Below are positions 1,167-21,383 of a stretch of 64,000 nucleotides of DNA, piece after piece. The stretch lies in NCBI RefSeq assembly GCF_040529045.1, contig NZ_CP131914.1, positions 2,340,501-2,404,500 on the forward strand, given 5' to 3'. The position numbers and the translations under genes are program-made. The DNA is from Xanthomonas indica (GTDB lineage Bacteria > Pseudomonadota > Gammaproteobacteria > Xanthomonadales > Xanthomonadaceae). The first letter of the stretch is position 1, and every line of letters begins with the position of its first letter. The notes beneath the pieces are model-generated. The model saw only the letters and a list, made by a program, of their open reading frames with translations. It did no database searches and was not told the DNA's origin.

Positions 1167-1230
1167 GCCGTCACCGACGCGCTGCGCTCCCGCAACACAG
1201 CACCGCCGCGACCACGCGGCTATGCGGTTT

Positions 1231-1264
1231 TCCGCATCCATCCTCGGCACAGCGCACAAGACGC
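1231..1264 (+). promoter_or_regulatory. Arabinoside-locus regulatory module, copy 1
   Basis: TCCGCA (1231-1236), 19 nt, then ACAAGACGC (1256-1264), 52 nt before the ATG of the Tat protein gene. The TCCGCA lies in an inverted repeat TGCGG-N4-CCGCA (1223-1236). The same two boxes with the identical 19 nt gap occur at 3734, 15254 and 17984. The factor that binds is unknown. Confidence 0.7.
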
Positions 1265-1316
1265 TGCGGCGCGCGCAGCGCACGATGCGACGATCGCATT
1301 GCATCGGGGACGGTAG

Positions 1317-3683
1317 ATGGATCGGAGAGATTTCCTGCGGCAGGGCTTGGCGGTCGGCGCGATTGCCGGCGTGGAAGCGCTGGCCGGGCGTGCCGCTGCG
1401 GCACCGACAGCAGCCAGCGCCGCGCGGGCGCCGGCAGCGCCGCACCTGCGGCCGCTTGCGGCCGACGCGCTCGCCGGGCATACGCTGCAATGCCGTTTCG
1501 TCGAGGCCGGTGCGACCTGGGAGGTCTACGAAGACCTGCGCCAGCCCGACGGCGATCTGACCCTGCGCGGGCCGGGCGGGGTGCTGGTGCTGGGCAAGCG
1601 CACCGAAGCGGTGTTCCCGGCGGCGCAGGCGCCGTACTTCGGCATGGCCCTGGCCGAAGTGGCGATGGCCGATGCCGATCTGCTCGCCGATCGCTTGCTG
1701 CGCGATGGCGACCCGCGCGCCGATGAGGTGCGCGACGTGGCGCCGCCGCCGGCCTCGCAACTGGATCCCAAGGACTACAACGGGCGCCTGCCGTGGACCA
1801 CCTTCGTCGGCACCCGCGAATGCGCCGACACCATGCCGGTGTACCCGGACGGGCGTACCCGCTGCTACCGCGCCATCCAGACGTTCCCGGAACTGGGCAA
1901 GGACGAACTGGTGCGGCGTCGCAGCGAAGGCCTGCTCGGTGGCTGGATGCCGGCGGTGCGCAAGGTGGTGCCGGCCGGCGACGGCCGCTACTACGACATC
2001 CTGCTGTTCGCCGACGTGCTGGCCGAGGACCGCTTCGTGGTGCAGACCTGGCACCGCAGCGCGCTGGTCGAGCATGGCAAGGTCAGCAAGGTGGTGTACG
2101 GCTACAGCTATCCGGACTACCCGCCGCGGCGCGGCCCGCGCAGTGCCGAGGAGTTCTACCGCGGCCTGCTCGCCTTCGCCGGCTACTGGCAGGCGCAGCT
2201 GGGCGACACCGTGCAGGCGCAGACCCCGGACCCGAGTTGGCGCGACATGGCGCGCTTCGCCTTCGCCCGCGAGCTGGTGGTGCGCCCCGGCGGCACCTAT
2301 CCCAAGTACGGCGCGGTGGACCGCGACTACTACGGCAACGAGTACGACGGCTTCCAGGACACCTTCACTAGTTCGCTGTACGCCAACCTGGAGTGGGGCC
2401 GCTTCAGCCAGGCCGCGGCGGTGCTGGACGGGTATTTCAGTGATTTCGTGCAGGCCGACGGCATGGTCAACATGCGCGGTCCGGAGACCGGCCAGTTCGG
2501 GCTGACCCTGTCGCTGCTGGCGCGCTACCTGCGCTACACCGGCGATGCCGCGCTGCTGCGCAAGCACCGCGACAAGATCGCCGCCACTGCGCAGGTGCTG
2601 GTCGAGCTGCACGACGCCAGCCTGCGCCTGCCGGCGTCGGCACCGGGGCATGGCCTGATTCACGGTTGGAACGAATCCGATGCCTGTCTGTTCCCCGATC
2701 CGCAGGTGTGGTGGAAGCCGTACTACGCCAACAGCGCGCTGGCGGTGCGCGGTTGGCAGGACCTGGCCGCGGTGTGGGCCGGCATCGCCGGGCCGGGTGG
2801 GCAGGCCGCCGCAGCGCAGTGGCAGCGCCGTGCGCAGCAGCTGTCCGCACAACTGCTGCGCACGCTGCGCGGCAACGTCCGCCGCGACTTGCAGCCGCCG
2901 TACCTCGGTCCGCTGCCCGGGGTGAAGCTCACCTTCCGCCAGTCGCTGCAGCAGGAACACCCCAGCGAGCAGGGCTGGCCGCACCGCGCCTACGCCGAAC
3001 TGCTGCAGGCCGATGTGCTGCCCGACGACCTGGCGCACCTGGTCATCGACTGCGTGCGCGGCCACGGCGGCACCAGCCTCGGCGTGGTCGGCAACATCAC
3101 CGCGCCCACGCCGGAGGCGCGCGACCTGCTCGGCTTCATCTCCTACGGCTACGCGCAGCAGTTGCTGCGCCTGGACCGGATCGAGGAATACCTGCTGTTC
3201 CTGTACGCGCACCGCTACCACGTGCATACCCGCGGCAGTTGGACGGCGGGCGAGGTCAGCGGCATCACCGGCGGCATGCCGCTGTTCTGCATTCCCGCGC
3301 AGATGACCATCCCGCTGCTGCTGCGCTGGATGCTGGTGTTCGAGGACAGCGCCGGCGAGGAACTGTTCCTGGCGCGGGCGCTGCCGCGCGACTGGCTGGG
3401 CAGCGGCGAGACGATCGCGATCGAGGCGGCGCCGACGCGCTGGGGCAGGGTGTCGCTGACCCTGCAGGGAGACCCGGCGCGCAAGCGCGTCGACGGCAGC
3501 GTGACGCTGCCGGCGCAGCGCCCGGCGCGGACTTGGCTGACCCTGCGCGTGCCGGCTGGCACCCGCCTGCAGGAGGTGCGGCTGGACGGACAACTGGCGG
3601 TGCTGTCCGGGCCGCGCAATGAGCGTGTGCTGGTCCCGGCCGGCAGCGCGGCGACGGTGGCGATTTCGGCTGTCTACGGCTGA
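1317..3683 (+). CDS. Tat-exported six-hairpin-glycosidase-like protein of unknown family
   Basis: The 788-residue product starts MDRRDFLRQGLAVGAIAG, a clear twin-arginine signal, followed by an Ala-rich linker to about residue 50. The middle (about 290-700) is rich in helices with aromatic/acidic motifs typical of (alpha/alpha)6-barrel glycosidases. These include YGNEYDGFQDT, the stretch at residues 451-455 (WNESD) and WPHRAYAELL. A beta-sandwich-like C-terminus follows (LTLRVPAGTRLQEVRLDG). I could not assign it to a CAZy family. It is the first gene of the arabinoside locus and has its own copy of the shared upstream module, so a periplasmic glycosidase role is inferred. The N-terminal 50-290 may be a substrate-binding domain. 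The ATG at 1317 is preceded by only a weak GGGGACGG. Confidence 0.7.
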   Translation: MDRRDFLRQGLAVGAIAGVEALAGRAAAAPTAASAARAPAAPHLRPLAADALAGHTLQCRFVEAGATWEVYEDLRQPDGDLTLRGPGGVLVLGKRTEAVFPAAQAPYFGMALAEVAMADADLLADRLLRDGDPRADEVRDVAPPPASQLDPKDYNGRLPWTTFVGTRECADTMPVYPDGRTRCYRAIQTFPELGKDELVRRRSEGLLGGWMPAVRKVVPAGDGRYYDILLFADVLAEDRFVVQTWHRSALVEHGKVSKVVYGYSYPDYPPRRGPRSAEEFYRGLLAFAGYWQAQLGDTVQAQTPDPSWRDMARFAFARELVVRPGGTYPKYGAVDRDYYGNEYDGFQDTFTSSLYANLEWGRFSQAAAVLDGYFSDFVQADGMVNMRGPETGQFGLTLSLLARYLRYTGDAALLRKHRDKIAATAQVLVELHDASLRLPASAPGHGLIHGWNESDACLFPDPQVWWKPYYANSALAVRGWQDLAAVWAGIAGPGGQAAAAQWQRRAQQLSAQLLRTLRGNVRRDLQPPYLGPLPGVKLTFRQSLQQEHPSEQGWPHRAYAELLQADVLPDDLAHLVIDCVRGHGGTSLGVVGNITAPTPEARDLLGFISYGYAQQLLRLDRIEEYLLFLYAHRYHVHTRGSWTAGEVSGITGGMPLFCIPAQMTIPLLLRWMLVFEDSAGEELFLARALPRDWLGSGETIAIEAAPTRWGRVSLTLQGDPARKRVDGSVTLPAQRPARTWLTLRVPAGTRLQEVRLDGQLAVLSGPRNERVLVPAGSAATVAISAVYG

Positions 3684-3733
3684 GTGGCGAAAAAGTCGGA
3701 AACGTCCCGCCGGTCCGCGGGGCAATGCGGTAT

Positions 3734-3799
3734 TCCGCACGTTTTCCCGATAAATACGACAAGACGCCGCGCGCGTCCTACGCGCACATTGTGACCGTG
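3734..3799 (+). promoter_or_regulatory. Arabinoside-locus regulatory module, copy 2 (three boxes)
   Basis: TCCGCA (3734-3739), 19 nt, ACAAGACGC (3759-3767), 21 nt, TTGTGACCGTG (3789-3799). It lies upstream of the first TonB receptor. TCCGCA is again half of TGCGG-N4-CCGCA (3727-3739). The remaining 217 nt to the ATG form a GC-rich leader with no gene seen. The third box contains TGTGA, a half-site of the CRP/Clp type, but no good second half follows. Confidence 0.7.
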
Positions 3800-4016
3800 C
3801 AGTGAATGTCCAGGGGGAGATTCGTTGCACGTCACCGGGGACGCAGCGCATGGGTCGTGCGCGTCGCCGTGCAGGCGGCGTCGGGATCGTCCCGTCCGGC
3901 GGCGCCTGCGTGGACACGTCCGTTTTCGTATCCGCCACATGTGCTGGCGTCGGGGCGGCCGCCTGGGGAAGGGCGGCGCTCCAGCGATCGCCAGGCCGCC
4001 GCTCAGGAGATTTCCG

Positions 4017-6845
4017 ATGCCGTCTTTGCTCGAACGCGTTGTGCCGCTGCTCCCGTGTTCCTGGCGCGCCGCGCCGCAACCCGGTCCACTGGCTGCGGCC
4101 ATCTGCACCGCGCTGGCCCTGCTCGCGCCAGCGGTGCAGGCGCAGGATGCGCAGACGCAGGACGCTCAGGCGACCACGCTGGAGCGGGTCAGCGTCACCG
4201 GCAGCCATCTGCGCCGGGTCGATGCCGAGACCGCCAGCCCGGTCATTACCATCGACCGCCAGCGCATCGAGGACAGCGGCCAGAACACGCTCGGCCAGTT
4301 GCTGCAGCAGCTGCCGGCGATGGCCGGCAACATGCCCAACGTGGCGCTCAATTCCGGCTTCAGCCACGGTCGTGCGCTGGTCTCGCTGCGCAATCTCGGC
4401 CCCGAGCGCACCCTGGTGCTGGTCAACGGCCACCGCATGGCCGGGCCGGCCAGCAGCGTCGCCGCCGCGCCCGGCGTGGACGTCAACGCGATTCCGGCGG
4501 CGATGGTCGAGCGCATCGAGGTGCTCACCGACGGCGCCTCGTCGGTGTACGGCTCCGACGCCATCGCCGGCGTGGTCAACATCATCCTCAAGGACAAGTA
4601 CGACGGTTTCGCCGCCACCGCCGACTACGGCCTGAGCACCCACGGCGACGGCAACCGCCGCTCGCTCGGCCTGGAGTGGGGCAAGACCTGGGACCGCGGC
4701 GGGCTGATCCTGGGCGTGAGCCGCAGTTCCATGAACGCGCTGTACGACAGCGACCGCGACTATGCGCGCACCGCGCACAGCTATCTCAACGGCGACGTGG
4801 TGGAGCGCCGCGGCAACGGCACCCGTGCCTTCCTCAGCAATGGCAGCGTGCTGACCCCCAACGCCAACCTGGCACCTGGCCAGGTCAACGCCAGCGACTT
4901 CCACACCTACAGCCAGGCGGTCGAAGGCTACAACGCGTACACCGGCCAGTACCTGATCACCCCGGTGCAGCGCACCAACGCCTCGGCGCACGCCAGCTTC
5001 GACTTCACCCCGAACGTGCAGGGCTACCTGGACATGTTCTGGACCCGCAGCGAGACCACCTCGCAGCTCACCGCCTACGGCCTGGAACTGCCCAACGCCG
5101 CGCAGAACTACTACAACCCCTTCGGCGCCCAGCTCAGCCGCTACCTGCTGCGCTCGGTGCCGGCCAACACCCGCGTCTACACCTCGACGATGTACCAGAC
5201 CAACATCGTCGCCGGCCTGCGCGGCAAGTTCGGCGACAGCAGCTGGCAGTGGGACGCGGCGGCCGGCTACGCGCACTACAAGGACACCCTGGTGCGCAAC
5301 GGCTTCTCCATCACCTCGGCGCTGAACAACGCGGTGGGCGCCTCGTTCCGCGACAGCGACGGCACCCTCAAGTGCGGCACGCCCGGCAACGTCATCGCCG
5401 GCTGTACCCCGATCAACGTGTTCAACCCGGACGATCCGGCCACCATCGCCGGCATCAAGGCCACCCAGAGCGCGGTCGACCTGATCGACGAGAGCACCAT
5501 GAAGTTCGCCGAGGCCAGCGTCAACGGCGACCTGTTCGCGATGCCGGCCGGCACGGTGCAGGCCGCGTTCGGCCTGTCGTTCCGCAAGAACGGCTTCTCG
5601 CAGGGCACCAGCAATCCGGTGGCGGCCGCCGATGCGGAAGGCAACTGCGATTACAACGACGGCTGCATCATGAACCAGGGCCACGACGAGACCATCAAGG
5701 AGGCCTACGCCGAAGTGCTGGTGCCGCTGCTCAAGGGCGTGACCGGCGCGCAGGCGCTGAACCTCAACCTGGGCACGCGCTACTCGCGCTACGACTACTG
5801 GGGCAGCACCACCAACAGCAAGGTCGCGCTGGAATGGCGGCCGATCGACAACCTGCTGATCCGCGCCACCGGCTCGCAGGTGTTCCGCGCGCCGGCGCTG
5901 GGCGACCTGTACGGCTCGCCGTACAACGGCGTGGTCGACGATGTCGCCGACTACACGGATCCGTGCAACGGCTACACCGGCGGCGGCAATCCCGCGGCCT
6001 GCGCCAACGTGCCGACCAATGGCCGTTTCGTCAACACCTCCACCTTCACTGTGCTCACCACCGGCTCGGCCAACGCCGGTTTCGCGATCAAGCCCGAGCA
6101 GGGCCGTTCCTACAACATCGGCGCGGTGTACGACCCGGGCTGGGCCGAGGGGCTGTCGCTGAACCTGGATAGCTGGCGCGTCACTCTCGACGACATGATC
6201 AACGGCGTCGGCCTGAATCAGGTGCTGCAGTATTGCTACGATGGCCAGAGTGCCTACTGCCCGTTGATCGAGCGCGGCCCCACCGGGCAACTGGTCAGCG
6301 TGACCGTGCCGTTCGCGATCAACAGCGGCAAGGTCGACATCCGCGGCGACGACGTTGGCATCAAGTACGCCTTGCCCGAGACCGCGTGGGGTCGCTTCCG
6401 TGCCGGCGTCGATGCCACCTACCTGTCCAGCTACAAATTCAGCGGCGATCCGCACAACTATGTGGGCGAACAATCCAGCTACGGCAATCTGCCGCGCTGG
6501 CGCGCGAACTTCACGCTCGACTGGGACAACGGTCCCTGGCACGCGAGTTGGAACACCCGCCTGATCGGCCGTACCACGGTCGGCAGCGCCTACGAGGACT
6601 TCTGCGTCAACACCGCCGCCGACGGCAGTTGCGTGTATTTCCCGGTTGGCACGGTGACCTACCACGACGCCAGCGTGAGCCGGAAGTTCGAGCGCCTGCA
6701 CAGCACCCTGGCGCTGGGCGTGAACAACCTCGGCAACCGCACGCCGCCGCGCTACTACGGCTACGCCAGTGCGGCCAACACCGACGCGTTCACCTACGAC
6801 ACGCTTGGGCGTTACTTCTGGGCGCGGATCAGGACCGAGTTTTGA
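4017..6845 (+). CDS. TonB-dependent receptor (first of the arabinoside locus)
   Basis: A 942-residue outer-membrane receptor. The start at 4017 is chosen because AGGAGA sits 6 nt upstream and a Sec signal follows (hydrophobic AAAICTALALLAPAVQAQ). The plug domain (about 55-170) shows SVTGSHLRRVDAETASPV and EVLTDGASSVYGSDAIAGVV. The beta-barrel ends in an aromatic residue (RYFWARIRTEF), as outer-membrane barrels do. No long N-terminal signalling extension is present, so it is not a FecA-type transducer. It shares CNGYTGGG and AACANVPT motifs with the second receptor at 18346, so the two are paralogues. The stop overlaps the TTG start of the next enzyme. Its likely cargo is arabino-oligosaccharides or arabinosylated Hyp peptides, by context only. 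Confidence 0.9.
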   Translation: MPSLLERVVPLLPCSWRAAPQPGPLAAAICTALALLAPAVQAQDAQTQDAQATTLERVSVTGSHLRRVDAETASPVITIDRQRIEDSGQNTLGQLLQQLPAMAGNMPNVALNSGFSHGRALVSLRNLGPERTLVLVNGHRMAGPASSVAAAPGVDVNAIPAAMVERIEVLTDGASSVYGSDAIAGVVNIILKDKYDGFAATADYGLSTHGDGNRRSLGLEWGKTWDRGGLILGVSRSSMNALYDSDRDYARTAHSYLNGDVVERRGNGTRAFLSNGSVLTPNANLAPGQVNASDFHTYSQAVEGYNAYTGQYLITPVQRTNASAHASFDFTPNVQGYLDMFWTRSETTSQLTAYGLELPNAAQNYYNPFGAQLSRYLLRSVPANTRVYTSTMYQTNIVAGLRGKFGDSSWQWDAAAGYAHYKDTLVRNGFSITSALNNAVGASFRDSDGTLKCGTPGNVIAGCTPINVFNPDDPATIAGIKATQSAVDLIDESTMKFAEASVNGDLFAMPAGTVQAAFGLSFRKNGFSQGTSNPVAAADAEGNCDYNDGCIMNQGHDETIKEAYAEVLVPLLKGVTGAQALNLNLGTRYSRYDYWGSTTNSKVALEWRPIDNLLIRATGSQVFRAPALGDLYGSPYNGVVDDVADYTDPCNGYTGGGNPAACANVPTNGRFVNTSTFTVLTTGSANAGFAIKPEQGRSYNIGAVYDPGWAEGLSLNLDSWRVTLDDMINGVGLNQVLQYCYDGQSAYCPLIERGPTGQLVSVTVPFAINSGKVDIRGDDVGIKYALPETAWGRFRAGVDATYLSSYKFSGDPHNYVGEQSSYGNLPRWRANFTLDWDNGPWHASWNTRLIGRTTVGSAYEDFCVNTAADGSCVYFPVGTVTYHDASVSRKFERLHSTLALGVNNLGNRTPPRYYGYASAANTDAFTYDTLGRYFWARIRTEF

Positions 6846-9800
6846 GTCGCCTGTCTGCACTCGGTGGCGTCGCGTCGCGCGTGCGGCGCGGCGCCGCCCT
6901 TCTAGGTTGCCTGCTGTTCGCGGTGGCGATTTCAGCATCGGCCACCACCGGCGATGTGCTCGACCGCGATGGCGAAGACCTGCAGCCCAGCAATGCCGCG
7001 ATCGGGATGCCGCGTTTTACCGGCGATGCGCATCCGCTGCCGGACAGCGGCGTGGCGTTCGCGCCGGGGCGGGGGCAGGGCCAGTTGCAGCGGGTGTTCG
7101 CCGCCGACCTGGCGGCGGGCGCAGGCAGCGCGCCCGGCCGCGATTTCTGGATCGACCGCCTGCTGGCGCGGCAGGGCACCGGCGGCGGCTTCGGCGACAG
7201 CAACAACTGGCTATTCACCCGTGGCCGCGCCGCCTACCTGTACACGCACAAGCCGGAGGAGCCCGGCTTCGTCGGCGACGTGGCCTATGTGCACAAGACC
7301 GGCCACGACGCGTTGTTCCGCCTGCAGCTGGAGCGCGACGGCGTGCCGATCGTGCTGGTCGAGGACAGTGCGCAGCGGCGGCAGACGCCGAGCTATTTCA
7401 GCAGCGTCTACGCCGGTGCCGGCGTGCGCCTGCAACTGGTCAAGTTCATCAGCGAGCAGAACGTGGCGGTGGCCGAGGCCACCGTGTCCAGCACCGACGG
7501 CGAGGCGCATGCGCTGACCCTGCGCGCGGTCTCACCGATGGTCACCCATCCCGACGGTGCCGAACTGACCGGCGCCTTCGTCACCCACAATGCCATCACC
7601 ACAGTGTTCCCGCGCCTGTCCGGCGACGGCTTCGCGGTGCAATGCGCGAGCATCGTGCGGCAGGTGGTCGTGCCGGCGCACGGGACCGCGCCAACGCTGA
7701 AGGTGCAACTCGGGCTGGTCGCGCGCGAACTGCCGGCCTCGCTGCAGGAATACCGGCGCATCGCCGCGCAATCGCCGCAGCAGGCCTATCGCGAGCACGT
7801 CGTCGCCTACAACCGCTGGTGGGCCGACAACCTGCCGTACCTGGACACGCCCGAGGACAATCTCGACAAGACCCTGTTCTATCGCTGGTGGCTGCTGCGC
7901 TTCAATTTCCTCGATGCCGCGGTGCCCGGCAACGACTACCAGTTCCCGGTGGCGATCGAAGGCGTGCTCGGCTACGACAACGCCATCGTGCTCACCACCG
8001 GCATGTTCATCGACGACCTCAAGTACCTGCGCGATCCGCTCTACGCGTACGGCTCCTGGCTCGGTACCGGCGAGACCGCCGGCGGCGGCAAGTACGTGGA
8101 CAATCCCGGCGCGCCGGAGAACTGGTCCAACTCCTACGCCCAGTATCTCAGTGCCGCCGCCTGGCGCGCCTATCAGGTGCATGGCGGGCCGCGGGCGATC
8201 GCCGGGCAATTGGCGCGCTACGCCAGCGAAGACGTGGAGGCGCTGCTGCGCGCCTACGATCGCAACGGCAACGGCCTGATCGAGTACGACTGGGCGGCGA
8301 TGACCGGCAACGACGCCGATGCGGTCTCCTTCGACTGGGCCAAGCGCCACGACGCGCCACGCATGGACCGCAGCGAGAGCGCGTACGTGTACGCCAATGC
8401 GCTGGCCGCCGCGCAGGCCGCGCAGGTGGCCGGCGACGCCGCCACTGCCACGCGCATGCAGACGCTGGTGGCGAAGATCCGTCGCGCCGTGCTCGACGTG
8501 CTGTGGCAGGACCACAGTGCACAGGCCGACGGCATGGGCCTGCACGGCGACCTGCTCAAGCAGCGCCAGGCCGACGGGCCGCGCCTGCCGGTGGACTGGA
8601 AGGAGACCAACAACTACTACCCCTTCAGCGTCGGTCTCATGCCCAAGCACGGCGACGCAGACGACGACCCCAAGTACGTGCGCGCGCTGCGCCTGTTCGC
8701 CGACGCGCGGCAGTTCCCGCTGTTCCCGTTCTACACGGCCAACCAGGCCGATGCGCAGGCGCGCGGCGAGGGGGGCAGCAACAATTTCTCGGTGATCAAT
8801 TCCACCGTGGCATTCCGCCTGCTCGGCAGCGTGTTGCGCGATTACCCCAGCCCGTATCTGGACGCGTCCAGCTACCGCACGCTGCTGTACTGGAACGCGT
8901 GGGCGCACTACATCGACGGCGACAACCGCTACCCGGACCAGAACGAGTTCTGGGCGCAGGGCAGCGCCGCCGATGGCGGCCGCATCGGCTACCGTTCGTG
9001 GATCCACCACACCCAGCTCGGCGCCACCAACTTCACCGTGATCGAGGATGCGATGGGCCTGCGTCCGCGCAGCGATGCCCTGATCGAGCTGTATCCGATC
9101 GACATCGGCTGGGACCATTTCGCCGCCGATCGGCTGCGCTACCGCGACCGCGACCTGAGCATCGTCTGGGACCGCGACGGTCGCCGCTACGGCGGCGCTG
9201 CGCCGAAGGGCTATTCGCTGTACCTGGACGGGCAACTGGCCTTCACCGTCGATCGCCTGGCACACCTGTTGTACGACCCTGGTAGCGGTCGCGTGCAGGC
9301 CTTGCCGGATGTGGTCAATGCCGGTGCCGCGCAGATGCAGGTGCTGGCCGCGCATCGGCTGGCGCTGCAGGCGCCGCAGCAGGTGCGCTTTCCAGGCCAG
9401 GCGCGGATCGGTGCGGTACTCGCCGATGCCGGGCTCGACATCGCGCTGCCGCCCGGCGCGCGCAACCTGGCGCAGGGCGCGGCGGTCAGCGCGAGCTATG
9501 CGGCCGACGGGTTCCCGGCCACGGCCGCGGTCGACGGCAGCACCGCCAACGAGCCGTTCTGGGGCACGGCCGGTTCGCCCGCCGCTAGCGACTGGCTGGA
9601 GCTGGATCTGGGTCGGCCGCAGACGCTCGACGACGTGCGTGTGTACTTCTATCGCAGTTCGTCGCCTCCGGGCGAACAGCATGGGTTCCCGTCGGGCACG
9701 CGCGCCGGCTACGCGCCGCCGTGGTTGTACGTGCTGCAGTACTTCGACGCCGGCGTGTGGAAGACCGTGCCGGGCCAGGTGCGCGATGCGCCGATCGCAC

Positions 9801-11188
9801 AGGGCAACCGCAACCGCATCCGTTTCCCGCCGCTGCGCGCGCAGCGCTGGCGCGTGCAAGTGACCCATGCAGGCGCGCTGCGCACCGGGATCAAGGAGAT
9901 CCAGGCCTATGCCAGCGGTGCGGCGGTGCTGGCGGCGCAGGGCAACCAGGCGCCGCAGGTCGAGGCCTGGCAGGAAGACGGCAGCAGTGCCGGCGGCGTG
10001 GTGCGCCTGGCCGGGCGGGTCGGCGACGACGCACTGCCGAACGGCACGCTCGCGCTGCACTGGCGCACGCTGCAGGCGCCGCCCGGTGGCGCCGCGCTGT
10101 TCGAGCAGCCGCAGGCGGCCACGACCGAGGTGCGCTTCACTGCGCCCGGCGCCTACACCCTGCAGTTGCAGGCCGACGATGGCGCGTTGCAGGGGCACGC
10201 CGAGGTGGCGGTAATCGCGGCAGCGGCCCCGGCCGGGCAGACCCTGCAGGTGCAGGGCGAGGCCACGCCGAGCGCGCAGTTCACCGCCGGCCATCACCGC
10301 CTGCAGGCGCTCAACGATGGCCTGCTGCCGGCGCCGGACCAGGAGCCCGCCGCCGACCGCCGCTGGGGCAGCTGGGGGCGCGCGCAGCCCGCCTCGGTGT
10401 GGGTGCAGTACCAGTGGCCGCAAGCGCAGCGGCTGAGCGCGGCGGCGCTGTACTTCTGGGACGACCAGCCGCAGGGCGGGGTGGCGTTGCCGCGCGCGTG
10501 GACGCTGCAATACCTCGACGGCACGCAGTGGCGCGACATCGCCGTGCGCGGCGGTTATCCGGTGCAGGGCAATGGCGTGCCGAGCCGGGTGACGTTCGCG
10601 CCGGTGGTCACCACGGCCTTGCGCGCGGTGCTGCAGACTGCGGTGCAGGGCGAAGGCCACTACGCGGTCGGCCTGGACGAGTGGCAGGTATTCGCCGAGC
10701 GTGCGGTGGTGACCGAAGCGGTGGACGTGCGTATCGCGCCCGGGCAGGCGCCGACGTTGCCGGCACGCATCGCCGGCTACTTCGCCGACGGCAGCTGGGG
10801 CTGGCTGGGCGTGCGCTGGTCGCAAGTCGGTGTGGCGGCGCTGGCCGGCGAGGGCCGCGTGCAGGTGCAGGGCCTGGCCGACGGCGGGGTGCCGGTGACT
10901 GCCAGCGTCTGGGTCCGCGCGACCGCACCGGGCCAGCTCACCACCGTGCAGGCGCCGCCGTCGTTGCACGTGCCTGCAGGGCAGGTACCGGCGCTGCCGG
11001 AACTGGTCTCCGTGCAGTACAACGACGGTTCGCGCGAGCGCGTGCCGGTGCGTTGGTCGCCGCTGGCGTCGGCCGCCTATGCGAAGCCAGGGCGCCTGAG
11101 CGTGGTCGGGCAGGCGCAGGGGCGCGAGGGCAGCGGCGAGTTGCCGGTGCGGCTGGAACTGGTGATCGAGCCGGAGGCGACGCCGTGA
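6842..11188 (+). CDS. GH121-like β-L-arabinobiosidase candidate with carbohydrate-binding and Ig-like domains
   Basis: A 1448-residue exported enzyme. The start is read as TTG at 6842, overlapping the receptor stop (TTGA), with AGGA 7 nt upstream. It gives a signal peptide ending AVAISASA. Residues about 100-830 look like an (alpha/alpha)6 glycosidase (NWSNSYAQYLSAAAWRAYQV, EYDWAAMTGND, DWKETNNYYPFS). Then come an F5/8-type domain (874-1023: NLAQGAAVSASY, WLELDLGRPQTL), a PKD/Ig-like domain (1034-1130), a second discoidin-like domain (1143-1285) and two Big_4 Ig-like domains (about 1291-1448: APGQAPTLPARIAGYFADGS). Position beside GH43 and DUF1680 genes matches the published Xanthomonas HypBA2/HypAA/HypBA1 set, hence GH121. 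Other MGH1-like families remain possible. A GTG at 6881 is an alternative start. Confidence 0.65.
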   Translation: MSRLSALGGVASRVRRGAALLGCLLFAVAISASATTGDVLDRDGEDLQPSNAAIGMPRFTGDAHPLPDSGVAFAPGRGQGQLQRVFAADLAAGAGSAPGRDFWIDRLLARQGTGGGFGDSNNWLFTRGRAAYLYTHKPEEPGFVGDVAYVHKTGHDALFRLQLERDGVPIVLVEDSAQRRQTPSYFSSVYAGAGVRLQLVKFISEQNVAVAEATVSSTDGEAHALTLRAVSPMVTHPDGAELTGAFVTHNAITTVFPRLSGDGFAVQCASIVRQVVVPAHGTAPTLKVQLGLVARELPASLQEYRRIAAQSPQQAYREHVVAYNRWWADNLPYLDTPEDNLDKTLFYRWWLLRFNFLDAAVPGNDYQFPVAIEGVLGYDNAIVLTTGMFIDDLKYLRDPLYAYGSWLGTGETAGGGKYVDNPGAPENWSNSYAQYLSAAAWRAYQVHGGPRAIAGQLARYASEDVEALLRAYDRNGNGLIEYDWAAMTGNDADAVSFDWAKRHDAPRMDRSESAYVYANALAAAQAAQVAGDAATATRMQTLVAKIRRAVLDVLWQDHSAQADGMGLHGDLLKQRQADGPRLPVDWKETNNYYPFSVGLMPKHGDADDDPKYVRALRLFADARQFPLFPFYTANQADAQARGEGGSNNFSVINSTVAFRLLGSVLRDYPSPYLDASSYRTLLYWNAWAHYIDGDNRYPDQNEFWAQGSAADGGRIGYRSWIHHTQLGATNFTVIEDAMGLRPRSDALIELYPIDIGWDHFAADRLRYRDRDLSIVWDRDGRRYGGAAPKGYSLYLDGQLAFTVDRLAHLLYDPGSGRVQALPDVVNAGAAQMQVLAAHRLALQAPQQVRFPGQARIGAVLADAGLDIALPPGARNLAQGAAVSASYAADGFPATAAVDGSTANEPFWGTAGSPAASDWLELDLGRPQTLDDVRVYFYRSSSPPGEQHGFPSGTRAGYAPPWLYVLQYFDAGVWKTVPGQVRDAPIAQGNRNRIRFPPLRAQRWRVQVTHAGALRTGIKEIQAYASGAAVLAAQGNQAPQVEAWQEDGSSAGGVVRLAGRVGDDALPNGTLALHWRTLQAPPGGAALFEQPQAATTEVRFTAPGAYTLQLQADDGALQGHAEVAVIAAAAPAGQTLQVQGEATPSAQFTAGHHRLQALNDGLLPAPDQEPAADRRWGSWGRAQPASVWVQYQWPQAQRLSAAALYFWDDQPQGGVALPRAWTLQYLDGTQWRDIAVRGGYPVQGNGVPSRVTFAPVVTTALRAVLQTAVQGEGHYAVGLDEWQVFAERAVVTEAVDVRIAPGQAPTLPARIAGYFADGSWGWLGVRWSQVGVAALAGEGRVQVQGLADGGVPVTASVWVRATAPGQLTTVQAPPSLHVPAGQVPALPELVSVQYNDGSRERVPVRWSPLASAAYAKPGRLSVVGQAQGREGSGELPVRLELVIEPEATP

Positions 11189-12780
11189 GCCGCCGGTCTG
11201 TGCGCAGTGCAGTCGCCTGCTTGCTGATGACCTGCGCTGCTTGCATCGGCGTTGCCACGGCCGCCACGCCGGCAACGCCGCGGTCGCGGCCGGTGCAGGC
11301 GCCGGGCAACCCGATCCTGGCCGACGGCCGCGACTATGCGGCCGACCCGGCACCACTGGTCGCCGATGGCAAGCTCTACATCATCGCCGGCCGCGACGAA
11401 GCACCGCCGGAGGTCAACGACTTCGTCATGGACCGCTGGCAACTGCTGGTTACCGACGACGTCGGCAGTGGCCGCTGGACCTACTATCCGGCACTGCTGC
11501 GACCGCACCAGGTGTTCGCCTGGGCCGCACCCGGTCATGCCTACGGCGCGCAGATCGTGCAGGGCCCGGACCGGCGCTACTACCTGTACGCGCCGGTGCA
11601 GGAAGCGCACTCGCGCAATGCCGATCCGTTCGCGATCGGGGTGGCGGTGGCCGACAGCCCATTGGGGCCGTGGCGCGACGCGCATCCGCAGGGACCGATC
11701 CTGTCGCAATCGCGGCCGGTGCCCAACACCATCCAGAACATCGACCCGACCGTGCTGGTCGACGACGATGGCCGCGTGTACCTGTACTGGGGTACCTTCG
11801 GCAAGCTGTTCGGCATCGAGCTGGACCGCGACATGGTCACGCCGAAGGGGCAGCCGGTGGCGGTGACCACGCTGGACGGCTACTTCGAGGCGCCGTGGCT
11901 GTTCAAGCGCAACGGCACCTACTACCTGGCCTATGCCGGCAACCGTGCCGGGCCGGCGTCGGACTGCACGCCGACGCTGTACCACGCCTGCATCGCCTAC
12001 GGCAGCGCGCCGTCGCCGCTGGGGCCGTGGACCTACCGCGGGGTACTCCTGCCGCCGGTCTCCTCGACCACCTCGCACTCGGGCATCGTCGAATTCAATG
12101 GCCAGTGGTACCTGGTCTATCACACCGCCGACGCCAAGGGCGGCGGGCATTTCCGCCGCAGCGTGGCGATCGACCGATTGCAGTGGGACGACACCCGGCA
12201 GCCGGCGCGGATCCTGCCGGTGGTGGCCACGCGCCGACCGCAGCTGCCGTTGCCACCGCAGCGCAACCTCGCCCGCTATGCGCAGGCCAGCGCGTCCAAC
12301 GGCCCGGACATCCCGCACCAGTACTGGATCGCCGCGCTCAACGACGGGCGGGTCAAGCGCAATCCCCTGCCGCCGCAGCTATGGGGCAGCTGGACACCGC
12401 ACAACCCGCCGCAGCAGTGGCTGCAGTACAGCTGGGCGCAACCGGTGACGCTGCAGCGCAGCCGCATCCTGTTCTGGGCCGACCATCCGCTGGGTGCGGA
12501 CAGCGGCGTGGCGCCGCCGGCACGCTGGCGGCTGGAGTACCGCCACGATGGCCGCTGGTGGCCACTGGCGCAGAGCACACACGCCCCGGTTGCCGGTCGC
12601 TGGCAGGCGCTGCGCTTCGACCCGGTGACCACGCGCTGCGTGCGCGCGGTACTGGATGCCGCCGGCGGCAGCGAGCGTTACGCTGCGTTGGCGGTGCAGG
12701 AGTGGGAGATGTTCGCGCCGCAGGCGCAGCGCCTGCCGCAGGCCACCGTCGCGGATGCGCAGCGCTGCGACACGCCTTGA
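11185..12780 (+). CDS. GH43-family α-L-arabinofuranosidase (HypAA-like) with C-terminal discoidin-like domain
   Basis: A 531-residue exported enzyme. The GTG start overlaps the preceding stop (GTGA) and has GGAGG 7 nt upstream. The signal peptide ends near GVATAATP. The five-bladed beta-propeller carries the GH43 triad: Asp54 (ADPAP, base), Asp187 (NIDPTVLVDDDG, pKa modulator) and Glu235 (YFEAPWLF, acid). Residues about 365-520 form a domain that resembles the second discoidin-like domain of the upstream enzyme (NDGR..., GSW, RILFWADHP, EWEMF). In the known Xanthomonas pathway a GH43 enzyme removes the terminal alpha-1,3-Araf from Ara4-Hyp. That role is inferred here from context. It is translationally coupled to the upstream gene. 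Confidence 0.82.
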   Translation: MSRRSVRSAVACLLMTCAACIGVATAATPATPRSRPVQAPGNPILADGRDYAADPAPLVADGKLYIIAGRDEAPPEVNDFVMDRWQLLVTDDVGSGRWTYYPALLRPHQVFAWAAPGHAYGAQIVQGPDRRYYLYAPVQEAHSRNADPFAIGVAVADSPLGPWRDAHPQGPILSQSRPVPNTIQNIDPTVLVDDDGRVYLYWGTFGKLFGIELDRDMVTPKGQPVAVTTLDGYFEAPWLFKRNGTYYLAYAGNRAGPASDCTPTLYHACIAYGSAPSPLGPWTYRGVLLPPVSSTTSHSGIVEFNGQWYLVYHTADAKGGGHFRRSVAIDRLQWDDTRQPARILPVVATRRPQLPLPPQRNLARYAQASASNGPDIPHQYWIAALNDGRVKRNPLPPQLWGSWTPHNPPQQWLQYSWAQPVTLQRSRILFWADHPLGADSGVAPPARWRLEYRHDGRWWPLAQSTHAPVAGRWQALRFDPVTTRCVRAVLDAAGGSERYAALAVQEWEMFAPQAQRLPQATVADAQRCDTP

Positions 12781-13017
12781 GGCCAGGTGCGGATGCCGAT
12801 TCAGCAAATGTCGCCGACCTTCGCGCGCGTTCCGGTGGCGAGACCTGCCGCCAACGTCGGCCGCCGTTGCCATCCGCATCATGTTCCTGTCGTGACACCA
12901 GTTCGATTTTCGACATGTGTGCGGAATTAGCCCGATTCCCTGGGGAGAACCGTAAGGTGCGTTGCGTTTGACTGCATTAGGCTGGCAACGGGTTGCCGAT
13001 GTGCGAGTGGCTGAAGC

Positions 13018-13054
13018 GCCGTCTGTTGTCGGCGTTTCGACGGCCGCCTTTTTT
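13018..13054 (+). terminator. Possible intrinsic terminator after the GH43 gene
   Basis: GCCGTC (13018-13023) pairs with GACGGC (13039-13044), and CGCCTTTTTT follows. The loop is long, so the call is weak. The 387 bp gap 12781-13167 holds nothing else recognised. The shared regulatory module is absent from it. Confidence 0.4.
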
Positions 13055-13167
13055 AACCGGCACGCCGTCGGGGGGGCGGCGGATTCATCCAGCACTGCCG
13101 GCTGTGTGGCGTAGCGCGTCGATCGTCCAATCCATCCAATCTCATCGGACAAGAGGAGGGTAGAGCC

Positions 13168-15018
13168 GTGAAAATCGCTGCTTCTCGATTCGTGCGTAGG
13201 GTGTCCACAGTGTGCCTGTCGGCCCTTTTGGCCCTGGTTGCGCAGCAGGCGCATGCCGCGGCCGCGGCCGTCTGCACCGCCGGTCAATGGATCGCCAATC
13301 CCGACGACACCGACATGCCGGCCGTTCGCTACGAAACCGAACACTTCGCGTTCCGCTGGCAGGACGGGCAAGCCGTTTCGCAGGACGAGGTCGCCTCGGC
13401 AGCCAAGGAACTGGAACTGATCTGGGACGATTACATGGAACGTGTCGGTTTTCCCGAGCCTTACTGCAACACGGCGAAGAAGTACAAGGTCAGCGTCTAC
13501 CTGGACCACAGCTTCGGCCTGAACGGCGGTACCTCTGCCAGCGGCGGCATGGGCATGTGGATCAATCCGGACCAGTTGGGATATCACTGGGGCCTGGCGC
13601 ATGAACTGACCCATGGGTTGCAGGGCAGTACCGGCGGCTTGCGCGATTCGCCGTACGTCGGCTGGATCTGGGAATCGCATGCCAACTGGATGGCCCATCA
13701 GTATTTCCACGACGATGTGCAGTGCTCGGAGATGTTGGTGAACTACCCGCATCTCTATCTCGGCTCGACCCGCGACCGCTACTGCAACTGGCAGTTCATG
13801 GAGTACCTCAAGGACCGCTTCGGCTACGCGATCGTCAACGATCTGTGGGCCAAGGCGCCCAAGCCCGGCGATTCCCGCCAGGCCGATGCCGATCCGTTCT
13901 CGATCATCCGCGACAACATGGGCTGGAGCCAGTCGCAGCTCAACGACGTGCTCGGCGACTGGGCCATGCACAACGTGCAGTGGGACTACATCGACCCGGA
14001 CGGTCGCGATCATGGCGCCGTGATGCGCCGGGAATACGGCAGCAATACCGCGTTCGATCCGGAAAACCCGTCCGATGAGACCAATCGGGATCGCGCCCTG
14101 CGCCTGACCCAGTTGGATCCGGTGCAGGGCCAGGCGGGCGTCTACCGGGTGCCGTTCGACTGGGCGCCGCAGCGGTGGGGCTACAACCTGGTCCGGCTGA
14201 TTCCCGCCGAGAGTGCGACTGCGGTGGTGGTGAAGTTCCATGGCAACGTACAGCAGAGGTCGGCGGTCGACACCTTGCCGGGTCTGGCGAACGACCCAGA
14301 GACGATCGGCTCACCCGACTCGGATTGGCGCTGGGGCCTGGTCGCCATCGATGCCAACGGCAAGCCGCGCTACAGCGCCTTGCAGCAAGGCGCCGAGGCC
14401 GCGCTGTCGTTCCAGGTCCGCAGCGATGACAGCGACCTGTATCTGGTGGTCATGGGCACGCCGAGCACGATGCAGAAGATCAAGTGGGATCAGTCCTACT
14501 ACTCGGTCTACCGCTATCCGTGGAGCGTCACGCTGGAGAACGCCTATCCGGCAGGTCACCAGCCCGGTGCGCCGACGCCGACGCGTGTCGGCAGCCGCCA
14601 TCCCAACGGCGGTGGCTGGGTCGCGCAGAACGCGTATGTCGCCTCGACCGCCTATGTCGGCCCGGATGCGCGGGTGCTCGGGGGCAAGGTGCTGGGCGAT
14701 GCGCGGATCGAGGACCATGCGACGATCCTGGGCGGGCAGGTGCAGGACAGCGCGGTGGTCGGCGGATTGAGCCTGCTGCAGGACGGGGTGACGGTGAAGG
14801 ATCGCGCCCAGGTGCATACAGTGTTCAAGCCGGCGGGGGCGTTCGGCGGGTTCACGCTGTCCGGTTCCGCGCAGTTGCGTGGCGACGTCGAGCAGCGGGG
14901 TGCGTCCGCCAGCAAGGGCGTGTTCTACGGATACGTGGATGCGGACACGGTGACCAATCCCGACTATGGCGCCGACCTGACCAACGCGGTGCCAGAGGTG
15001 ACGGCAGAACCGCGCTGA
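13168..15018 (+). CDS. avrXca: AvrXca/Svx-family secreted zinc metalloprotease
   Basis: The 616-residue product has a Sec signal (MKIAASRFVRRVSTVCLSAL...AHA). The start is GTG at 13168, fixed by AGGAGGG 7 nt upstream. Residues 145-149 are HELTH, a zinc HExxH site. Glu169 in WESHANW, 20 residues on, is a plausible third ligand (gluzincin pattern). The sequence matches my memory of the Svx/AvrXca (DUF6055) proteins, first described as a Xanthomonas avirulence protein and a Pectobacterium type II-secreted virulence factor. Residues about 485-570 show hexapeptide-like repeats (AYVGPDARVLGG, DARIEDHATILGG) suggesting a left-handed beta-helix. It lies inside the arabinoside locus but lacks the shared promoter module. 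Cleavage of arabinosylated plant wall proteins is an inference. Confidence 0.82.
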   Translation: MKIAASRFVRRVSTVCLSALLALVAQQAHAAAAAVCTAGQWIANPDDTDMPAVRYETEHFAFRWQDGQAVSQDEVASAAKELELIWDDYMERVGFPEPYCNTAKKYKVSVYLDHSFGLNGGTSASGGMGMWINPDQLGYHWGLAHELTHGLQGSTGGLRDSPYVGWIWESHANWMAHQYFHDDVQCSEMLVNYPHLYLGSTRDRYCNWQFMEYLKDRFGYAIVNDLWAKAPKPGDSRQADADPFSIIRDNMGWSQSQLNDVLGDWAMHNVQWDYIDPDGRDHGAVMRREYGSNTAFDPENPSDETNRDRALRLTQLDPVQGQAGVYRVPFDWAPQRWGYNLVRLIPAESATAVVVKFHGNVQQRSAVDTLPGLANDPETIGSPDSDWRWGLVAIDANGKPRYSALQQGAEAALSFQVRSDDSDLYLVVMGTPSTMQKIKWDQSYYSVYRYPWSVTLENAYPAGHQPGAPTPTRVGSRHPNGGGWVAQNAYVASTAYVGPDARVLGGKVLGDARIEDHATILGGQVQDSAVVGGLSLLQDGVTVKDRAQVHTVFKPAGAFGGFTLSGSAQLRGDVEQRGASASKGVFYGYVDADTVTNPDYGADLTNAVPEVTAEPR

Positions 15019-15253
15019 TCGACTGGCGATGACCATGGCGGCGGTGTCGCGACGGATGCCCGGGCATTCGTTCGCCGCCGCCGCATTTCCTCGATATGAC
15101 ATGAGCGACGTGTGGTGCGGGGTGCTCCTGACGTGAAGGGCTCCTGGCATGCCGGCCGCGTTCGCCTGCGATGCGCGCATGGCCTGGTCGTCTGTGGCGT
15201 TCTTCGTGCGATGTTCGTCGCCTGTGGCATGCCGCGTGGCGATTCGGCAGAAA

Positions 15254-15305
15254 TCCGCATCTGCAGGCATCAGTGGGGACAAGACGCGCTGTCACCCGGG
15301 TGACA
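15254..15305 (+). promoter_or_regulatory. Arabinoside-locus regulatory module, copy 3, with a perfect 16 bp palindrome
   Basis: TCCGCA (15254-15259), 19 nt, ACAAGACGC (15279-15287), then TGTCACCCGGGTGACA (15290-15305), a perfect palindrome, followed by CAGTGACACC. It lies upstream of the DUF1680 gene. The palindrome sits between the second box and the place where the receptor promoters carry their third box. The gap 15019-15374 holds no gene that I recognise. Confidence 0.7.
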
Positions 15306-15374
15306 CAGTGACACCGGATCCGCCGGTCGTTGTGCGCGAAGTCGGCGCCCCGACACCCCACACAGGAGCAGTCC

Positions 15375-15431
15375 ATGCCTCGATGCGTTTCTTTCCCGCA
15401 TGCCACCTCGCGCGCGGGAGTCCGGCGATGA
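15375..15431 (+). CDS. Possible 18-residue leader peptide before the DUF1680 gene
   Basis: ATG at 15375 has AGGAG at the ideal spacing of 6 nt. The frame MPRCVSFPHATSRAGVRR ends in a TGA (15429-15431) that overlaps the DUF1680 start codon (ATGA at 15428). The ribosome site therefore serves this short frame better than the first in-frame ATG of the enzyme (15383, spacing 14). It may couple translation or be chance. There is no evidence for a stable product. Confidence 0.35.
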   Translation: MPRCVSFPHATSRAGVRR

Positions 15432-17842
15432 GCGGGCAGGGGACGCATCGGCACGCCGCCGCCTGCGTGCACGCACCCGCCGATGCGGCCGGCGGCGCGC
15501 TGGATCCCTCGCGCCGCCGCTTCCTGCAATGGAGCGCACTGGCGGTGGCAGCCGGGATGCTGCGCTTTCCGCTGGACGCTGCGGCGTCCACGCCCGGGCG
15601 CGTGCAGGCGCTGCCCTTGCAGCAGGTCACGCTGAAACCGTCGCTGTTCCTGGAGTCGCTGCAGACCAACCGCCGCTACCTGCTGGAACTGGAGCCGGAC
15701 CGCCTGCTGCACAACTTCCTGCAATACGCCGGCCTGCCGCCGAAGGGCGCGGTGTACGGCGGCTGGGAGGGCGACACCATCGCCGGCCATACCTTGGGCC
15801 ACTACCTCAGCGCACTGGCCAAGATGCACGCGCAGACCCGCGACCCCGCGCTGCGTGAGCGCATCGATTACATCGTCGCCGAACTGGCGCGCGCACAGGC
15901 CAAGGACGCGGACGGTTACGTGGGCGGGCTCACCCGCAAGAACGACCAAGGCGCCATCGACAGCGGCAAGGTGGTATTCGAGGAAGTGCGCCGCGGCATC
16001 ATCAAGGGCAGCAAGTTCAATCTCAACGGCAGTTGGTCGCCGCTGTACACGGTGCACAAACTGTTCGCCGGCTTGCTCGACGCACACGCACTGGCCGGCA
16101 ACGCGCAAGCGCTGCAGGTGCTGCTGCCGCTGGCCGGCTATCTGGGAGGCGTGTTCGACGCGCTCGACCATGCGCAGATGCAGACCTTGCTGGACACCGA
16201 GTTCGGCGGCCTCAACGAGTCCTACATCGAACTGGGCGCGCGCACCGGCGATGCACGCTGGATCGCCATCGGCAAGCGCCTGCGCCACGAAAAGGTGATC
16301 GATCAGGCCGCGGCCGGGCGCGACGAACTGCCGCACATCCATGCCAATACCCAGGTGCCCAAGTTCATCGGCGAGGCGCGCCAGTTCGAGGTCGCTGGCG
16401 ACGCCGATGCGGCCGCGGCGGCCCGCTTCTTCTGGGAGACGGTCACCACGCACTACAGCTACGTGATCGGCGGCAATGCCGACCGCGAGTACTTCCAGGA
16501 GCCCGACACCATCGCCGCGTTCCTGACCGAGCAGACCTGCGAGCATTGCAACAGCTACAACATGCTCAAGCTGACCCGGCACCTGTACCAGTGGACGCCG
16601 CAGGCGCGTTACTTCGACTACTACGAGCGCACGCTGCACAACCACACCATGGCCGCGCAGCATCCGGGCACCGGCATGTTCACTTACATGACGCCGATGA
16701 TCAGCGGCGGCGAGCGCGGCTTCTCCGACAGGTTCGACTCGTTCTGGTGCTGCGTCGGCAGCGGCATGGAAGCGCATGCGCAGTTCGGCGATGCCATCTA
16801 CTGGCAGGACGCCACCTCGCTGTACGTGAATCTTTACATCCCCTCGCGGCTGGACTGGAGCGAGCGTGACCTGGCGCTGGAACTGGACAGCGGTGTGCCC
16901 GACAACGGCAAGGTGCGCCTGCAGGTGCTGCGCGCTGGTGCACGCACACCGCGGCGCCTGCTGTTGCGGGTGCCGGCCTGGTGCCAGGGCCGCTACACCT
17001 TGCGCGTGAACGGCAAGCCCGCACGCGCGGCGCTGGCCGACGGCTATCTGACGCTGGAGCGCGAGTGGCGCGCCGGTGACGTGATCGACCTGGACCTGGC
17101 TACGCCGCTGCGGCTGGAACATGCCGCCGGCGATACGGACACCGTGGTGGTGATGCGCGGGCCGCTGGCGCTGGCGGCCGACCTGGGGCCGGTGAGCACC
17201 CCCTACGATGCGCCGGACCCGGCGTTGGTGGCCGCGGCCGATCCGCTGCGCGGCTTCGCCGAACTGCCGCAGCCCGGCCATTTCCAGGCCAGCAGCACGC
17301 AGCCGCCGGGCCTGACCTTCGTGCCGTTCTACGCGCAGTACGAGCGCCGCAGTGCGCTGTACTTCAAGCGCATGGACCCCACGCAGTGGGCGCAGGAGGC
17401 GCAGCGGCGGGCGCGCCGCCAGGCCGAGCAGGACAAGCTGCGCGCGATCGCGGTGGACATGATCCAGTTCGGCGACGAGGCCTCCGAGCAGGCGCACCAG
17501 TTGCGCAGCGACACGTCCTTCGGCGGCGCCTACCGTCGCCAGCAGTGCCGCGACGTGCGCGGCAAGGGCTTCGTCGAGTTCCGCATGCGCGGCAGTGCGC
17601 AACCCCTGGCGCTGCGCCTGCGCTTCTGGGGCAGCGACAAGGGCCGCTTCAACATCCTGGTCAACGGCAAGCTGGCCGTGGAGGTGGCGGTGGAGCGCGG
17701 CCAGGTGATCGATTTCGTCGACCGCGACTACCCGTTGCCGCCGGCGCTGACCCGCGATGCGCAGCCGCTGACCGTGCGCATCGAGCCGCAGCACGGCGAC
17801 ACTGCCGGCCCGTTGTTCGGCGGCTGGCTGATCCCGGCGTGA
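15428..17842 (+). CDS. Tat-exported DUF1680 β-L-arabinofuranosidase (GH127/GH146)
   Basis: An 804-residue enzyme. From the ATG at 15428 (GGGAG 7 nt upstream) the N-terminus carries SRRRFLQWSALAVAAG, a Tat signal. An ATG at 15383 would add 15 residues. The DUF1680 (alpha/alpha)6 barrel shows LLHNFLQYAGLPPKG, YGGWEGDTIAGHTLGHYLSA and the zinc-cysteine site. Glu372-x-Cys374 (CEHCNSYNML) pairs with Cys441-Cys442 (FWCCVGSG), the arrangement that holds the nucleophilic Cys in this family. The C-terminal beta-domains (from about 480) resemble DUF4986/DUF6805, favouring the GH146-type layout over short GH127. The family releases L-arabinose from beta-Araf-Hyp or related beta-arabinofuranosides. It has its own copy of the shared module. 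Confidence 0.88.
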   Translation: MSGQGTHRHAAACVHAPADAAGGALDPSRRRFLQWSALAVAAGMLRFPLDAAASTPGRVQALPLQQVTLKPSLFLESLQTNRRYLLELEPDRLLHNFLQYAGLPPKGAVYGGWEGDTIAGHTLGHYLSALAKMHAQTRDPALRERIDYIVAELARAQAKDADGYVGGLTRKNDQGAIDSGKVVFEEVRRGIIKGSKFNLNGSWSPLYTVHKLFAGLLDAHALAGNAQALQVLLPLAGYLGGVFDALDHAQMQTLLDTEFGGLNESYIELGARTGDARWIAIGKRLRHEKVIDQAAAGRDELPHIHANTQVPKFIGEARQFEVAGDADAAAAARFFWETVTTHYSYVIGGNADREYFQEPDTIAAFLTEQTCEHCNSYNMLKLTRHLYQWTPQARYFDYYERTLHNHTMAAQHPGTGMFTYMTPMISGGERGFSDRFDSFWCCVGSGMEAHAQFGDAIYWQDATSLYVNLYIPSRLDWSERDLALELDSGVPDNGKVRLQVLRAGARTPRRLLLRVPAWCQGRYTLRVNGKPARAALADGYLTLEREWRAGDVIDLDLATPLRLEHAAGDTDTVVVMRGPLALAADLGPVSTPYDAPDPALVAAADPLRGFAELPQPGHFQASSTQPPGLTFVPFYAQYERRSALYFKRMDPTQWAQEAQRRARRQAEQDKLRAIAVDMIQFGDEASEQAHQLRSDTSFGGAYRRQQCRDVRGKGFVEFRMRGSAQPLALRLRFWGSDKGRFNILVNGKLAVEVAVERGQVIDFVDRDYPLPPALTRDAQPLTVRIEPQHGDTAGPLFGGWLIPA

Positions 17843-17983
17843 CGCCGCGTGGCGGTACCGTCCGCATCGCCCCGCATGGCCGATGGCAGCGCGTGCCTGT
17901 CGTGGTCGCCGCTATGCGACACGGCGCCATGCCGCGGCACGCTCGCCGCGTGCAGCGCGGCGCCGCGCACGACCATGCATGAT

Positions 17984-18049
17984 TCCGCACGCGAAACCGC
18001 GAATCGCGACAAGACGCGGCCACGCATCCACGGCACAGTTGTGACCGTG
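17984..18049 (+). promoter_or_regulatory. Arabinoside-locus regulatory module, copy 4 (three boxes)
   Basis: TCCGCA (17984-17989), 19 nt, ACAAGACGC (18009-18017), 21 nt, TTGTGACCGTG (18039-18049): the same geometry as upstream of the first receptor. A leader of about 295 nt follows to the ATG at 18346. I see no gene in 17843-18345. Confidence 0.72.
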
Positions 18050-21222: not shown

Positions 21223-21383
21223 GGCGGAGCCTGGTTGCGCAGGCGATCGGGTCGGCGGTGCCGGGGCGGGTGGGGAGCACGCCGCGGTACGCACGGCCGG
21301 CCCGGTTCCACGTGGGCGGTAATGAACCGGCACGGCGCATCACACGATCGTGCCGCCTGCCAGTAAAGATGAAAGGCCATCCT

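Follow-up and report, generated by a model that had tools for sequence, protein, structure and literature searches.

A conserved two-box module at the hydroxyproline-arabinoside locus of Xanthomonas indica and its probable link to a PAS-AraC regulator of hydroxyproline catabolism

Four transcription units of the hydroxyproline (Hyp)-arabinoside locus of Xanthomonas indica are preceded by one and the same two-box module, which probably acts as operator and promoter for an LhpR-like activator of the PAS-AraC type that would couple the uptake and deglycosylation of Hyp-arabinosides to the catabolism of Hyp. The two-box architecture common to these promoters, its conservation and the linkage of the regulator gene to a catabolic operon can be read directly from the genomes. 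The window analyzed here is a stretch of 64,000 nucleotides (contig NZ_CP131914.1, positions 2,340,501 to 2,404,500), and its relevant features are listed in Table 1.

The preliminary description of this DNA had reported four copies of TCCGCA-N19-ACAAGACGC, each upstream of a gene or operon of the locus. We have recovered all four at those places, every one 5' of a gene and with exactly 19 nt between the boxes, and TTGTGACCGTG does start exactly 21 nt after the right box in the two copies that precede a TonB-receptor gene (at 3789 and at 18039). As a separate third box, TTGTGACCGTG was rejected, since it begins within the likely -10 and is absent from the remaining two promoters. The full module is a palindrome, TGC-N4-WTTCCGCAY, followed by 19 nt, CAAGAC over the likely -35, 17 nt and a CANNNT-like -10, i.e., a putative promoter. 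The left box is an inverted repeat, and no clear direct repeat could be seen by eye in the alignment of the sites. AraC-type operators are usually direct repeats of half-sites rather than 14-bp palindromes like this one, and LysR-type promoters carry a T-N11-A dyad near -65. The dyad found here is TGC-N8-GCA, i.e., T-N12-A and not the LysR-type T-N11-A, and the linked regulator is of the AraC type.

Table 1. Module copies and genes of the arabinoside locus (window coordinates), with the candidate regulator (contig coordinates).
Feature	Position	Strand	Remarks
Module copy 1	1223..1286	+	palindrome 1223-1236, right box 1256-1264, likely -10 CACGAT 1281-1286; 5' of the gene at 1317 (788 aa)
Module copy 2	3726..3790	+	palindrome 3726-3739, right box 3759-3767, likely -10 CACATT 3785-3790; 5' of the gene at 4017 (TonB receptor 1)
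Module copy 3	15246..15309	+	left box 15246-15259 (left arm GGC, not TGC), right box 15279-15287, likely -10 CACAGT 15304-15309; 5' of the gene at 15428 (GH127 hypBA1)
Module copy 4	17976..18039	+	left box 17976-17989, right box 18009-18017, likely -10 CACAGT 18034-18039; 5' of the gene at 18346 (TonB receptor 2)
Unit 1, 788-aa protein	1317..3683	+	family not recognised; also follows the module in other genera (67-71% identity)
Unit 2, gene 1, TonB-dependent receptor 1	4017..6845	+	start inferred from ribosome-binding site
Unit 2, gene 2, hypBA2, GH121-like beta-L-arabinobiosidase	6842..11188	+	position and X. euvesicatoria homologue
Unit 2, gene 3, hypAA, GH43	11185..12780	+	start/stop overlap with hypBA2 (GTGA)
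Svx/AvrXca-family gene	13168..15018	+	within the locus, between hypAA and hypBA1
Unit 3, hypBA1, GH127 beta-L-arabinofuranosidase	15428..17842	+	
Unit 4, TonB-dependent receptor 2	18346..21222	+	
Candidate regulator, PAS-AraC	contig 2324102-2324806	-	outside the window, 17 kb upstream of copy 1

Scattered random matches over the genome had been named beforehand as evidence that would speak against the module. No such exact matches appeared, and the 4,807,150-base genome contains only these four copies. At two mismatches four further places were found in the genome. In the scan of the window at up to three mismatches, four matches are at chance level (shuffles, mean 3.54), so the strength of the module lies in its exactness and its conservation. 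Across the genus the exact pattern gave 48 matches in 20 of 20 genomes (the own genome and one of the same species included), with one to four in each, and the reversed-pattern control gave none; in the family it was present in 36 of 297 genomes. The module was also found in Stenotrophomonas (L055). Three exact matches outside the genus (L056, L058 and L060) were taken as chance, since the only gene of the arabinoside locus near any of them was a TonB receptor, at some distance, in L060. They were removed before the site set was built.

This set comprised 40 stretches plus the window, with sites 5' of orthologous genes and no more than two mismatches over both boxes; 41 representatives (<80% alike) were tabulated, and 37 of them entered the alignment and the profile, four similar ones being left out. 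The other objection raised beforehand, a lack of conservation in orthologous promoters, did not hold either, as the boxes are kept in front of the same units across genera. Taking the T of TCCGCA as position 1, T1, C2 and A6 were present in 41/41 representatives and C3, G4 and C5 in 40/41, and the right box (C27 A28 A29 G30 A31 C32) in 41/41, although this conservation is partly built in because the sites were picked by both boxes. That does not apply to G-7 and C-6 of the left arm (40/41 each), nor to A52 (32/41) and T56 (33/41), which mark the CANNNT-like -10, 17 nt past AAGACG. The module in front of the 788-aa gene was within one mismatch in 21/21 rows of the cross-genome comparison. A module copy of its own for hypBA1 is found in the clade of the window; several other genomes lack it, and there the gene lies directly behind receptor 2. 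A BLAST-anchored best-match scan misplaced the hypBA1 sites in the window, in L086 and L089 and in one row out of two for both L090 and L094, as BLAST aligned these genes only from an internal position; the exact-pattern scans show the true sites.

When the 37-site profile, built from sequence only, was run against the own genome, the four copies came out with E values of 9.6e-15 to 1.1e-10, followed only by partial matches. The second of these (L100, E 0.086) falls in the gap between a PAS-AraC regulator gene and a 4-hydroxyproline epimerase gene. As had been noted before, no regulator gene lies in the locus, and this candidate is indeed located outside the window. Its product matches HTH_18 with 83.3 bits (cut-off 33.6), i.e., an AraC-family helix-turn-helix, and PAS_4 with 84.7 bits over residues 14-122, i.e., an N-terminal PAS domain. 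The gene is divergent from the epimerase and its operon. The epimerase scored 437 bits, just below the equivalog cut-off of 442, and is the sole Pro_racemase match above cut-off in the own genome; after it come FAD oxidoreductases, a DHDPS-family enzyme, an aldehyde dehydrogenase, an M24 prolidase-like protein and two DUF885 proteins. Judged from this gene content, it is a trans-4-hydroxyproline catabolic operon. An orthologue of the regulator (at least 79% identity) was found in 29 of 30 genomes, the own one included, and the left box was in the regulator/epimerase gap in all 29 loci; the remaining genome (G031) has no orthologue and gave only a chance-like match to the motif. Strong matches in the regulator search were obtained in three of 185 genomes of the class, all from the family of the window, and at E 1e-70 the regulator profile matched in 16 of 56 genomes, some of the matches being paralogues.

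We have also observed a second PAS-AraC paralogue, with 55-58% identity, in many genomes (L143 among them). No TGC-N5-TCCGCA was present at the paralogous loci (L143, L317-L319), where the best matches had 3-6 mismatches, and no box was found at L307, a regulator locus apparently beside an epimerase. The best partial match of the profile (L099, E 0.023) lies elsewhere in the own genome, near position 1501 of that stretch, is left-box-like and was assigned no target. This TGCAGACTTCCGCAT is at G000:C1:3505509-3505523, and the identical 15-mer is present in G006, G008, G010 and G013.

A scan of named genomes yielded 80 regulator loci in two families, with many genomes overlapping the first set; 75 were usable, L259 and L261-L264 being left out as partial or distant. 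They came from Xanthomonas (both clades, X. euvesicatoria included), Stenotrophomonas, Pseudoxanthomonas and Luteimonas, and also from Rhodanobacter, Dyella, Luteibacter, Frateuria, Fulvimonas and others. The left box was present within three mismatches in 75/75 loci, compared to 87 of 1500 random stretches of the same loci; the matches in L221 and L233 are probably not genuine boxes. With the loci aligned on the left box only, CTAGNCG appeared at N19 in 72 of the 75 (60 exact, 11 with one mismatch and one with two), and at N18 or N20 in none of the 75 within two mismatches. The three loci in which the right box was not found were L221, L233 and L257. The CTAGNCG core was read from these same 75 loci, but the 19-nt spacing had been fixed beforehand by the arabinoside locus, and the presence of CTAGNCG at this preset spacing is the strongest single piece of evidence. 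The right box differs by class, being ACAAGACG 5' of the receptor and hydrolase units and CTAGNCG 5' of the catabolic operon.

The preliminary description had offered the module as a search pattern for the rest of the regulon, and scanning did lead to further members. The joint pattern TGC-N5-TCCGCA-N20-CWAGNCG, which can serve to search for the regulon, gave 143 matches in 49 of 297 family genomes, against nine for the reversed control. In the own genome it retrieves three copies of the locus and the Hyp operon, missing the hypBA1 copy because the left arm there is GGC. Fourteen of the 143 matches end in CAAG[CGT]CG, lie outside the locus and are apparently unrelated; genomes G095, G115, G212, G284 and G293 have only a match of this type and no regulator. 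TCCGCA-N19-NCAAGACG was found within one mismatch in Frateuria and Fulvimonas (L251 and L256) and in a Rhodanobacter MAG (L254), in all three before a TonB-receptor-like gene adjoining the regulator, and exact copies are located at the edge of the stretch in four Dyella loci (L242, L249, L252 and L253). In 77 regulator stretches of up to 10 kb each, neither the hydrolases nor the 788-aa protein had a homologue at 1e-3; only TonB receptors were detected, with 24-34% identity (seven matches in four loci, four of them better than 1e-30). By eye, the left-box palindrome was also seen upstream of a chemoreceptor-like gene in four genomes (L174:6495, L175:6418, L176:6759 and L177:6883), which could hint at chemotaxis to hydroxyproline.

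Binding of the regulator, activation, the inducer and the start sites are what we infer from these comparisons, as follows. The PAS-AraC regulator would sense hydroxyproline, as is reported for LhpR, bind the palindrome centered near -63 and, either by itself or together with RNA polymerase, occupy the CAAGAC box that covers the -35. The promoters activated would be of the sigma70 type, with a weak -10 (CANNNT) that needs help. A related switch lies beside the regulator and the genes for Hyp use, which makes hydroxyproline, rather than arabinose, the likely signal; it is the amino acid that bears the sugars of the plant wall proteins on which these genes probably allow growth. The probable inducer would be the Hyp set free as HypAA, HypBA2 and HypBA1 take arabinose off Hyp-arabinosides. 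One regulator could thus govern uptake through two TonB receptors, deglycosylation and Hyp catabolism, in a positive loop in which released hydroxyproline raises uptake, deglycosylation and its own catabolism. We lean slightly towards a broader proposal, that a hydroxyproline sensor is the master switch of plant-glycoprotein use across the Xanthomonadaceae through a bipartite palindrome-plus-minus-35 operator, that pathogens read Hyp as a sign of extensin digestion and that HrpX later took one branch in some Xanthomonas.

The LhpR of Pseudomonas aeruginosa is an AraC-family protein activated by binding of L-Hyp (PMC6608401), with a PAS domain at residues 1-107 (PMC8694187). The candidate is like LhpR (PA1261) in family, N-terminal PAS and neighboring Hyp catabolism genes, i.e., in domains and gene setting. 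It differs from LhpR, as far as described in those accounts, in the Hyp-arabinoside TonB receptors and hydrolases placed under its proposed control. The GntR-type HypR (Proteobacteria, PMC5343134; Streptomyces, PMC6608401) also controls Hyp use, but it is a repressor from another family. In several Alteromonadales the HypR regulon is predicted to include a putative TonB-dependent transporter (PMC5343134), and no word beginning with "Xanthomonad" occurs in that source. A description of this operator or regulon was not found in the literature on Xanthomonas hydroxyproline regulation, LhpR, AraC and TonB receptors (titles and abstract openings, mostly from journals free of subscription). The kind of regulator is known, and the operator and its wiring to the arabinoside locus appear to be new. 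For a locus with half-explained control we can now name a regulator candidate together with an operator and the likely inducer, and an amino-acid sensor becomes tied to a glycan-uptake locus.

The different right boxes of the two classes leave room for a second factor, and a tentative alternative is that the PAS-AraC protein binds the left box while CAAGAC is the site of another activator or is recognized by sigma as part of the promoter. All 41 locus sites (chosen with no more than two mismatches over both boxes) have CAAGAC, yet it is replaced by CTAGNC at the catabolic promoter, and it sits 17 nt before the likely -10, like a -35. However, the 19-nt spacing is identical in both classes, C27, A29, G30, C32 and G33 are common to both, and the flanks of the right box form, by eye, a weak GCG-N6-CGC dyad resembling the left box. 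That the module is a promoter class of its own, read by a separate sigma factor and needing no activator, is the least credible option; the geometry is fixed and both boxes are strict, but the palindrome is 29 bp from the second box (center to center, counted by hand), which is not a -35/-10 spacing, and the catabolic promoter makes use of the left box as well. Of the two possibilities raised in the preliminary description, one regulator or an unusual promoter class, the comparative evidence backs the former as one shared module of fixed geometry and disfavors the latter. We also consider it improbable that the module is bound by a regulator that senses arabinose (of the LacI, LysR or another type), with the left box of the Hyp operon as a mere by-product. 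Arabinose is indeed released by the enzymes of the locus, and a dyad centered at -63 plus a -35 box resembles LysR-type geometry; against this, the box and the PAS-AraC gene stay linked in two families, and no transcription factor was found among 10 neighboring proteins inspected at the arabinoside locus in other genera. The LysR-type GamR had been considered as the regulator and was dropped once the PAS-AraC link emerged.

Control by HrpX through PIP boxes is published for hypBA2-AA of X. euvesicatoria, where expression is HrpX-dependent (PMC6085000), and we have found a PIP box before hypBA2 in this species (L313:5760) and in L180 (15125), L181 (19583) and L071 (996) among 17 stretches scanned. 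As the explanation of the module it is very unlikely. The module does not fit TTCGB-N15-TTCGB, which bears out the earlier remark, as regards the PIP box, that no known operator family matches; moreover, the module occurs in Stenotrophomonas, while Rhodanobacter, Dyella and other genera have the regulator accompanied by its box. Within the window TTCGB-N15-TTCGB occurs only at 13325 and 55788, neither before a unit of the locus, and no PIP box precedes hypBA2 in the window, L063/L064 or L072, so that here, unlike in X. euvesicatoria, hypBA2-hypAA follow TonB receptor 1 without one. PIP box promoters have a YANNNT-like -10. They and the module both place an activator site 5' of the -10, but sequence, spacing and regulator differ. 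From this distribution, HrpX control of the hypBA2 branch looks like a later addition in part of the genus.

Returning to the PAS-AraC activator, X. euvesicatoria carries the module before receptor 1 (two mismatches) and receptor 2 (one mismatch), and a further copy (L314, one mismatch) seems to point at the 788-aa gene across a contig break. Its hypBA1 lies ~120 bp behind the module-bearing TonB receptor 2, and this gene, which has no PIP box, is reported to be expressed more strongly during plant infection (PMC6085000). The control described in the available text of that source places HrpX/PIP on hypBA2-AA only and leaves the induction of hypBA1 unexplained; a module of the Hyp regulator, if true, would explain it.

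The enzyme set is like HypBA1, HypBA2 and HypAA of X. euvesicatoria and Bifidobacterium longum, with the substrate assigned by homology; the X. euvesicatoria enzymes are described as removing arabinose from hydroxyproline-rich glycoproteins (PMC6085000). Unit 2 is an apparent three-gene operon, TonB receptor-hypBA2-hypAA, with the start of hypBA2 overlapping the stop of TonB receptor 1 (TTGA); the name hypBA2 rests on position and homology, with no family match of its own above cut-off. The 788-aa protein, which gave no Pfam, NCBIfam or PDB match, is likely an enzyme of Hyp-arabinoside use, of a new kind. It has a twin-arginine-like start (MDRRDFLRQG). At the Svx/AvrXca-family gene no module copy was found 5' of the gene at up to three mismatches in the scan of the window. 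A leader ORF of 18 codons, which has a ribosome-binding site, may occupy 15375-15431, and its stop overlaps the hypBA1 start (ATGA), which suggests translational coupling. At TonB receptor 2 about 300 nt would separate the likely transcription start from the start codon. Between this gene and the next, at ~21330-21460, a long inverted repeat (GGAGCGGCTTCAGCCGCGACG...) was seen by eye that looks like a dispersed palindromic repeat, and RHS-repeat genes lie downstream of the locus at 22772-29142.
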